Source of the DNA: Sedimenticola selenatireducens DSM 17993
GTDB taxonomy: Bacteria > Pseudomonadota > Gammaproteobacteria > Chromatiales > Chromatiaceae
Assembly (NCBI RefSeq): GCF_000428045.1
Contig: NZ_ATZE01000016.1
Location: 1-64,000, forward strand
Length of the DNA stretch: 64,000 nucleotides
Direction: 5' to 3'
The translations under genes and the position numbers were made by a program. The notes beneath the pieces are model-generated. The model was given only the letters and a program-made list of their open reading frames with translations, made no database searches and was not told the DNA's origin. Below are positions 4,319 to 5,471 of this stretch, one piece after another (the first letter of the stretch is position 1; the number at the start of each line of letters is the position of its first letter).

Positions 4319-4744
4319 ATGCCAAAAATAACCTGCCAGGATTTCAATCATATACTGGAGAGTGAAATGTCCTGGGCCAGCGACCTTGAGATGCGGCTTG
4401 AACGTATCGAGCCTGGTCTGGCAATCATGCGCCTGCCCTATCACCATAACAGCACCCGACCGGGCGGCACTATCTCCGGACCCCACATGATGATGCTGGC
4501 AGATGCCTGCATGTATGCCGTTGTGCTGGGCCTGATTGGGCAGGTAAAACTGGCTGTCACCACCAACTTCAACATCAACTTTCTGCGCAAACCGGAACAG
4601 ACAGATCTCCTCGCCGAGGGGAAAATCATCAAGCTGGGTAAGCGGCTGGCCATTATGGAGGTCTCCATCACGGCTGAGGCATCAGGAAAACTGGTGGCCC
4701 ACGCCACCGGAACCTATTCAATCCCCCCTTCCGAGGACGAATAA
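4319..4744 (+). CDS. PaaI-type hotdog-fold thioesterase
   Basis: This 141-residue single hotdog domain should hydrolyse an acyl-CoA thioester in the cytoplasm. The stretch NSTRPGGTISGPHMMMLADACMYAV carries the family pattern of a catalytic-loop Gly-Gly followed by the long hot-dog helix, and AVTTNFNINFLRKP is the typical beta strand. The substrate is unknown. It follows the acyl-CoA dehydrogenase by about 80 bases on the same strand and probably belongs to the same operon, where it could release CoA from dead-end products. Confidence 0.88.
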   Translation: MPKITCQDFNHILESEMSWASDLEMRLERIEPGLAIMRLPYHHNSTRPGGTISGPHMMMLADACMYAVVLGLIGQVKLAVTTNFNINFLRKPEQTDLLAEGKIIKLGKRLAIMEVSITAEASGKLVAHATGTYSIPPSEDE

Positions 4745-4791
4745 TTCAGCGATAAAGCCCCATGAATATGAGTATATTATAATTTTATTGA

Positions 4792-4805
4792 TTGATAATT
4801 ATCAA
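4792..4805. promoter_or_regulatory. FNR/ANR-type box
   Basis: TTGATAATTATCAA matches the FNR consensus TTGAT-N4-ATCAA perfectly and extends to a 16-bp palindrome at 4791-4806. Its centre (4798.5) is 41.5 bases upstream of a possible start at 4840, which has the weak -10 TTCAAT at 4829-4834; this is class II activator geometry. Alternatively, TTGATT (4788-4793) and CATACT (4811-4816), 17 bases apart, form a promoter that the box would overlap and repress. A Fur site is less likely because the 7-1-7 Fur pattern is not complete. Confidence 0.65.
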
Positions 4806-4822
4806 TGTGGCATACTCCTTCC

Positions 4823-4973
4823 GTGTGCTTCAATAGGCACAGGTCAGCGGGACTTGGCCAAATGCAGTATCGTAGTAGTGTCAAGTCCTGCTGTGCCTTC
4901 TAAATCCCCATCCTCCTTTGGTGGTTTTAAAACGGTAACTTCAGCCTGACTTCCCCTGTCAGGCTTTTTTTTT
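4823..4973 (+). ncRNA. Candidate FNR-controlled small regulatory RNA
   Basis: No open frame lies between the thioesterase and cheX, yet the region has an FNR box, promoter elements, a strong hairpin and an intrinsic terminator. The arms AGCGGGACTTG (4846-4856) and CAAGTCCTGCT (4882-4892) pair, extended by AGGCAC/GTGCCT at 4835-4840 and 4893-4898. An unpaired C-rich stretch (4906-4917, CCCCATCCTCCT) could pair with Shine-Dalgarno sequences. The start is uncertain (4823 or about 4840), so the RNA would be about 130-150 nt. The plan resembles FnrS, but I see no sequence match to it. Confidence 0.5.
4943..4973 (+). terminator. Rho-independent terminator
   Basis: AGCCTGAC (4943-4950) pairs with GTCAGGCT (4958-4965) around a 7-base loop, and a run of nine T follows. 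It ends the candidate small RNA and separates it from cheX. Confidence 0.9.
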
Positions 4974-4993
4974 CATTATATTTTTGGCTGACA

Positions 4994-4999
4994 TATAAT
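4994..4999 (+). promoter_or_regulatory. -10 element implying a leaderless cheX mRNA
   Basis: A perfect TATAAT ends 7 bases before the cheX ATG at 5007, so transcription would start at or within a base of the ATG. No Shine-Dalgarno sequence precedes the start (CCGCAAC). The -35 is poor (TTTCAT at 4971-4976, 17-base spacing). Confidence 0.5.
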
Positions 5000-5006
5000 C
5001 CGCAAC

Positions 5007-5471
5007 ATGAAAGCGGAATTCGTCAATCCATTCCTTAATGCCATTCTCGATGTCCTCTCCACCATGGCACGCATTGATGCCAAACCAGGTAAGCCATACC
5101 TTAAAAAGGAACGTACCTCATTGGGTGACGTCAGTGGGCTGATCGGTCTGACGGGAAAACAGATGAAAGGGTCTCTCGCCATTTCATTTACCGAACCCGT
5201 CATATTGCAGATCGCCGAAAATATGCTGGGCGAAAAAGCGGAATCAGTAAATGATACGGTGACCGACCTGGTGGGGGAGATCACCAATATGGTAACCGGT
5301 GGTGCCAAGCGTATTTTTAGCGAAATGGGCTATGACTTTGATCTGGCGATTCCCGGAGTCGTGGCAGGAAAGAATCACGCAATTACCCATAAAACCAGTG
5401 GCCAGACTATTATTCTCCCGTTCCACACCGAGAATGGTGATTTTTTCGTTGAAATCTGCTTTGAAGGCTGA
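5007..5471 (+). CDS. cheX: CheX-like chemotaxis phosphatase
   Basis: The 154-residue protein has the CheC/CheX/FliY fold pattern. The active-site helix DLVGEITNMVTGGAK carries the Glu91-x2-Asn94 pair that CheX uses to dephosphorylate CheY-P. The hydrophobic strands GLIGLTG and GSLAISF and the C-terminal FFVEICF fit CheX. It stands alone, with no chemotaxis genes nearby, so it may act on another response regulator. An intrinsic terminator lies just upstream, and the start looks leaderless. Confidence 0.85.
   Translation: MKAEFVNPFLNAILDVLSTMARIDAKPGKPYLKKERTSLGDVSGLIGLTGKQMKGSLAISFTEPVILQIAENMLGEKAESVNDTVTDLVGEITNMVTGGAKRIFSEMGYDFDLAIPGVVAGKNHAITHKTSGQTIILPFHTENGDFFVEICFEG

Follow-up and report, generated by a model that had tools for sequence, protein, structure and literature searches.

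FNR-type controlled small RNAs and anti-Shine-Dalgarno small RNAs are both kinds of RNA that are already known. The former include FnrS of Enterobacteria, AniS of Neisseria and PhrS of Pseudomonas, which are activated by FNR-type regulators. A regulator box centred at -41.5 or -42.5 represents the class II activation geometry of the FNR/CRP family, and FNR/ANR and DNR/NnrR proteins have common site preferences. The sequence UCCUCCUU is the anti-Shine-Dalgarno sequence located at the end of 16S rRNA. The RF02278 family (Betaproteobacteria toxic small RNA), with bdhR1 of Burkholderia and S17/S17S of Bordetella, displays unpaired CUCC-rich segments ahead of a terminator. In Bordetella, such a tail is present on the longer S17 precursor, which RNase E cleaves to a short form; S17/S17S are Hfq-dependent, and the tail pairs at complementary ribosome-binding sites and represses (PMC11722255).

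The locus described here lies within a 64-kb stretch of DNA, termed the window, from a genome assigned to Sedimenticola (Gammaproteobacteria, Sedimenticolaceae) by the taxonomy of the loci that share the element. Comparison with Rfam gave nothing above the gathering score anywhere in the 64-kb window, and for whichever of FnrS, PhrS and AniS are modelled in Rfam there was no match at the gathering score or at E values up to 10, bearing out the statement in the original prediction that no sequence match to these three RNAs could be seen. Like FnrS, AniS and PhrS, the small RNA of the window is predicted to be FNR-type-activated from a site near -41.5; unlike them, it is built from a long 5' hairpin and an anti-Shine-Dalgarno tail.

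Comparison between genomes identified one conserved unit comprising the box, a 57-nt hairpin, a C/U-rich tail with UCCUCC and a terminator; it very probably represents a genuine gene for a small regulatory RNA that Sedimenticola shares with related sulfur bacteria. The preferred interpretation, given a probability of about three in four, is that positions 4841-4973 constitute a free-standing gene for an anti-Shine-Dalgarno small RNA of ~133 nt, activated by an FNR/DNR-type regulator and bearing a novel 5' structured element. The interval was correctly described as gene-free, and extends over 4745-5006 between a thioesterase-family gene (4319-4744) and the CheX-family gene cheX (5007-5471). These two genes are on the same strand and about 260 bp apart, an arrangement that could also be produced by the read-through 3' untranslated region and terminator of a thioesterase operon, or by a leader or attenuator of cheX, neither of which would be a gene in its own right. 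Such an origin is very improbable, as the unit has conserved promoter elements of its own, one paralogue sits between two DAHP synthase-like genes, and the neighbours on both sides are exchanged between genera while the RNA is kept. The neighbour is cheX in the window, a QueG-like gene is next to the RNA in genome G003, and dapE/ppk are found in G017; because the neighbouring genes change in this way, the RNA is taken to be a free-standing gene.

Orthologues were present in five further Sedimenticola genomes and in sister genera. The region could be aligned over its whole length with those five genomes and, from the hairpin onward, with G017, which belongs to a sister genus. The box, the TGnTTCAATAG element, the hairpin, the CCATCCTCCTTTGGTGG tail and the terminator are conserved, while the DNA between and around them diverges. 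A covariance model recovered 28 good copies from 19 genomes, all Sedimenticolaceae, when 210 genomes of the order were searched; a twentieth genome listed (G399, locus L063) gave a weak chance match that was discarded, the loop motif being mismatched at 8 positions. The same type of search in 369 genomes of the class detected nothing beyond Sedimenticolaceae except a chance match in G185, and a plasmid search gave no match. When about 85,000 species were scanned by plain sequence, nine contigs were returned, seven in the Sedimenticola group and two by chance. Loci with the element belong to S. selenatireducens, S. hydrogenitrophicus, Sedimenticola sp., the Solemya velesiana gill symbiont and a Chromatiales MAG. 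Matches to the loop pattern in a Chitinophagales MAG and a Woesearchaeota MAG (L040, L042) and in G185 (L026) were taken as chance because the surrounding hairpin or tail is missing.

The dyad TTGATAATTATCAA at 4792-4805 (+ strand) is an FNR/ANR/DNR-type box of the form TTGAT-N4-ATCAA, perfect as originally reported and the only perfect one within the 64-kb window. Base composition predicts about 0.03 such boxes for 64 kb and about 2 for the genome; 16 were observed in the source genome. A TTK-N8-CAA dyad is located at the same place, 64-68 nt 5' of the loop motif, in 23 of 28 copies, and the four Sedimenticola orthologues besides the window and G005 have one or two mismatches in the box. A Fur box was also considered and rejected, the fit to the 19-bp Fur consensus being poor by eye and the conserved form being TTG-N8-CAA. 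The extended -10 element TGCTTCAAT (4826-4834, + strand) conforms to TGnTnnA[AC]T, and in all 23 boxed copies its hexamer begins 36 or 37 nt downstream of the first box base; the spacing is thus fixed despite a diverging spacer. With the usual 12 nt from the first base of the -10 hexamer to +1, the conserved element places the predicted transcription start at 4841 (+/-1 nt, + strand), which is also where the 5' stem begins. The box centre would then lie at -41.5 in six copies and at -42.5 in the rest, including the window. An activating geometry had been proposed from a box 41.5 bases before a start at 4840, and the geometry stands in 23/23 boxed copies, with the exact figures revised to 4841 (+/-1) and -42.5 for this copy. 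The locus therefore appears to have the site near -41.5 of a promoter that marks FNR-activated small RNAs as a class, one defined by function and not by homology. With the start slightly corrected, the initial interpretation of the sequence is largely supported.

A second possible start at about 4823, served by CATACT (4812-4817), had been put forward as an arrangement in which FNR binding would block transcription and the box would be repressive. The window sequence does contain TTGATT-N18-CATACT, with TG before the -10. This start is nevertheless unsupported because its -10 is not conserved in relatives, being missing in G005 (ACCCAC) and in the paralogues, while the competing TGnTnnA[AC]T at +36/37 is kept in 23/23. 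It would, moreover, add a 5' hairpin whose stem lacks conservation, and a repressive box is considered very improbable. Five homologues from sister genera (L050, L052, L055, L059, L064), which represent the first paralogue, have lost the FNR-type box and instead carry a consensus-like sigma70 promoter, TTGACA/TATTAT-like, upstream, so that the oxygen link is not universal and control differs between lineages. An additional 5' hairpin was seen besides the sigma70-like promoter at L050 and L052.

The predicted RNA (4841-4973) folds with an energy of -51.2 kcal/mol (z = -6.3 against shuffled sequence). The long hairpin that had been placed between box and terminator was recovered as a 57-nt 5' hairpin at 4841-4897 (+ strand) by the covariance model match. 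Ten hairpin copies align nearly gap-free with plain MAFFT, and in this alignment 92.9% of cells pair, compared with 76.6% in shuffles. The original prediction had named non-compensatory decay of the stem in relatives as evidence that would count against the RNA, and the stem passed this check: double-sided, compensatory changes occur in 12 of the 15 main-stem pairs of the ten-copy alignment, where sliding the arms of the stem gave no offset approaching the true pairing. The 28-copy alignment has double-sided changes in 14/15 stem pairs and a covariation score of 0.743 versus 0.266 in shuffles, although this alignment was made by the model and leans towards structure.

The apical motif of the hairpin, GCCAAAUGCAGUAUCGUAGUAG at 4857-4878 (+ strand), is nearly invariant over the 28 copies, with the consensus GCCAAAKGCAGUAUCGNAGUAG, also written GCCAAA(G/U)GCAGUAUCGnAGUAG. 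A nearly invariant loop on top of a freely covarying stem represents an unexplained RNA motif. This degree of conservation exceeds the need of an RNA stabilizer, and the loop may bind protein, RNA or a ligand. One extension of this idea is that the motif is a new receptor, recognizing a protein, a second RNA or a small molecule, and gates the anti-Shine-Dalgarno tail, the RNA thereby sensing a second signal besides the FNR-type one; this is decidedly unlikely. It could also be that binding by the apical loop is the main business of the RNA, and that the UCCUCC tail is only one part of a terminator module shared with other small RNAs. The loop is indeed the most conserved part over 28 copies, beyond stability needs, and two other loci of the source genome carry the tail module but no hairpin. 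Note, however, that UCCUCC is kept in 28/28 copies, even where the remaining tail has changed (L054, L072), and that a few box-bearing loci (L154, L160) keep UCCUCC without the loop motif; a primary role for the loop is on balance unlikely. A pseudoknot between loop and tail (CCAAAGG with CCUUUGG) was also examined. The loop AAAGG is able to pair with the tail CCUUU in many copies, but in the window copy (AAAUG) not fully, and the pseudoknot was rejected, the window and G005 having CCAAAUG and L054 having lost UUUGG.

The C-rich segment noticed in the original prediction as complementary to Shine-Dalgarno sequences has as its core UCCUCC at 4911-4916 (+ strand), which lies between the hairpin and the terminator in 28/28 homologues, including copies with an otherwise changed tail. 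In the predicted fold of the window copy it is displayed in the loop of a C/U-rich tail hairpin (4901-4929, + strand), with UCCUCCUU in the loop and the 16-mer CATCCTCCTTTGGTGG. The strong intrinsic terminator was also found where it had been proposed (4943-4973, + strand), folding at 4943-4965 and followed by a T-run, and a T-run terminator is present in those homologues whose contig reaches there. The Shine-Dalgarno complementarity is probably functional, in that the tail would be able to block the ribosome-binding sites of mRNAs. A strict search of the genome for AAAGGAGGA-N-ATG gave six places, one of them a plausible gene start, that of a CBS-domain-like ORF, which is a candidate target. 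The source genome encodes Hfq.

As in RF02278, the C/U-rich tail of the window RNA has CUCCUCC-type segments and a small hairpin ahead of a strong terminator, and the UCCUCC in the predicted tail-hairpin loop matches the display of unpaired CUCC-rich segments before the terminator. Unlike RF02278, the window RNA has a 5' hairpin with an invariant loop and an FNR-type promoter, and it comes from another bacterial class. The window tail scored 20.2 bits against RF02278 and the best of the scanned source-genome loci (L028) 34.9 bits, both below the gathering score of 50 and outside family membership. No Rfam model gave the window tail more than a weak score. Scores were likewise below gathering for anti-hemB (RF02837; 25.0 bits versus 49.5) and for mmgR/suhB (RF00519; 23.7 bits versus 41), to which there is a weak likeness in the tail only (UCCUCC plus terminator), those families being without the 5' hairpin. 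The 16-mer CATCCTCCTTTGGTGG occurs in 57 of 274 genomes of the class (control, 0) and at the loci read is nearly always directly 5' of a terminator. With other 5' parts attached, this tail module looks like a widespread and undescribed relative of RF02278. Two more small RNA-like loci with the CATCCTCCTTTGGTGG tail and a terminator were seen in the source genome, at G000:C8:4134-4149 (L021, L030) and G000:C6:103451-103466 (L028); these are without the hairpin and lie behind TTGAC...ATATTAGAAnAT promoters. The literature searched, which left most subscription journals outside its scope, yielded no paper on small RNAs of Sedimenticola, and a family combining the 5' hairpin with paired FNR-type promoters was found neither in that literature nor in Rfam and is likely new.

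A mechanism consistent with these features can be proposed. An FNR/DNR-type regulator of the CRP/FNR superfamily would bind 4792-4805 at the class II position and, together with the extended -10 (4826-4834), bring about transcription at low oxygen or in the presence of nitric oxide. The resulting ~133-nt RNA would start directly with the long 5' hairpin; this hairpin would shield the 5' end and expose the invariant apical loop, while the tail would show UCCUCCUU and pair with strong Shine-Dalgarno sequences. By analogy with S17S/bdhR1 in Betaproteobacteria, the most likely role of the RNA in anaerobic or denitrifying conditions is to repress, probably with Hfq, a group of mRNAs whose Shine-Dalgarno sequences are strong. 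If this is correct, FNR/DNR-type control of an anti-Shine-Dalgarno RNA would extend to facultatively anaerobic sulfur and denitrifying bacteria, including the Solemya gill symbiont, whose riboregulation is poorly known.

A second paralogue, with a TTGCGAATTCGCAA-type box and the tail CTCCTCCTTTTGGATT, is present in most Sedimenticola genomes. In the source genome it is located at G000:C36:7267-7420 between two DAHP synthase-like genes, recognized by sequence and not by family search, and such neighbours recur in G003, G017 and G002. The pattern TTGMKAATTMKCAA is found in the source genome at the two paralogues only. Within the family, TTGCGAATTnKCAATGC has 31 occurrences, and the reversed control pattern has 0. 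The majority of these sites belong to the paralogues or to additional loci that combine box, -10, UCCUCC and terminator; others lie 5' of a norC-like gene, an octaheme tetrathionate reductase-family cytochrome and a SLAC1/TehA transporter. A TTGCGAATT-type box lies 5' of the norC orthologue of another genome and of an octaheme tetrathionate reductase-family gene.

The perfect TTGAT-N4-ATCAA boxes of the source genome precede, among others, genes for a NorC-like cytochrome, NnrS, cytochrome cd1 and a NiFe hydrogenase small subunit. In G019, the orthologue of norC (76% identical) has a TTGCGAATTGTCAA box where the source-genome norC has a TTGAT box, so that genes of one kind are served by both box types. 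The source genome encodes three FNR-like proteins that carry the Cys motif, one of which (L099) is above the NCBIfam Fnr cut-off, alongside many further CRP/FNR-family proteins. Since FNR/ANR and DNR/NnrR share site preferences, the signal may be either the lack of oxygen or nitric oxide. One possible interpretation, held at rather less than even odds, is that the RNA is as described but that its activator is a nitric oxide-sensing DNR/NnrR-type paralogue, the signal being nitric oxide or denitrification and not anaerobiosis as such. This would fit the TTGCGAATTCGCAA box of the paralogue, which departs from TTGAT and is of the type found before norC in G019, the TTGAT boxes on the norC, nirS-like and nnrS genes of the source genome, and the abundance of CRP/FNR-family proteins. 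The window copy, on the other hand, matches the FNR consensus perfectly, although that site is common to DNR and FNR and sequence cannot separate the two. The different boxes of the paralogues (TTGAT, TTGCG) suggest that the sibling RNAs may divide the oxygen and nitric oxide signals between them.

Five loci (L154, L157, L160, L169, L177) have a TTGCGAATT box, UCCUCC and a terminator with the loop motif altered or absent, and the RNA family is therefore wider than the reach of the covariance model. In four genomes (L065, L068, L070 and L071; for example, L065 1440-1480), a TTGCGAATTCGCAA or TTGAGAATTCTCAA box lies inside a G+C-rich hairpin with a T-run behind it on the opposite strand, and the box hairpin of the second paralogue may therefore double as the terminator of the convergent gene.
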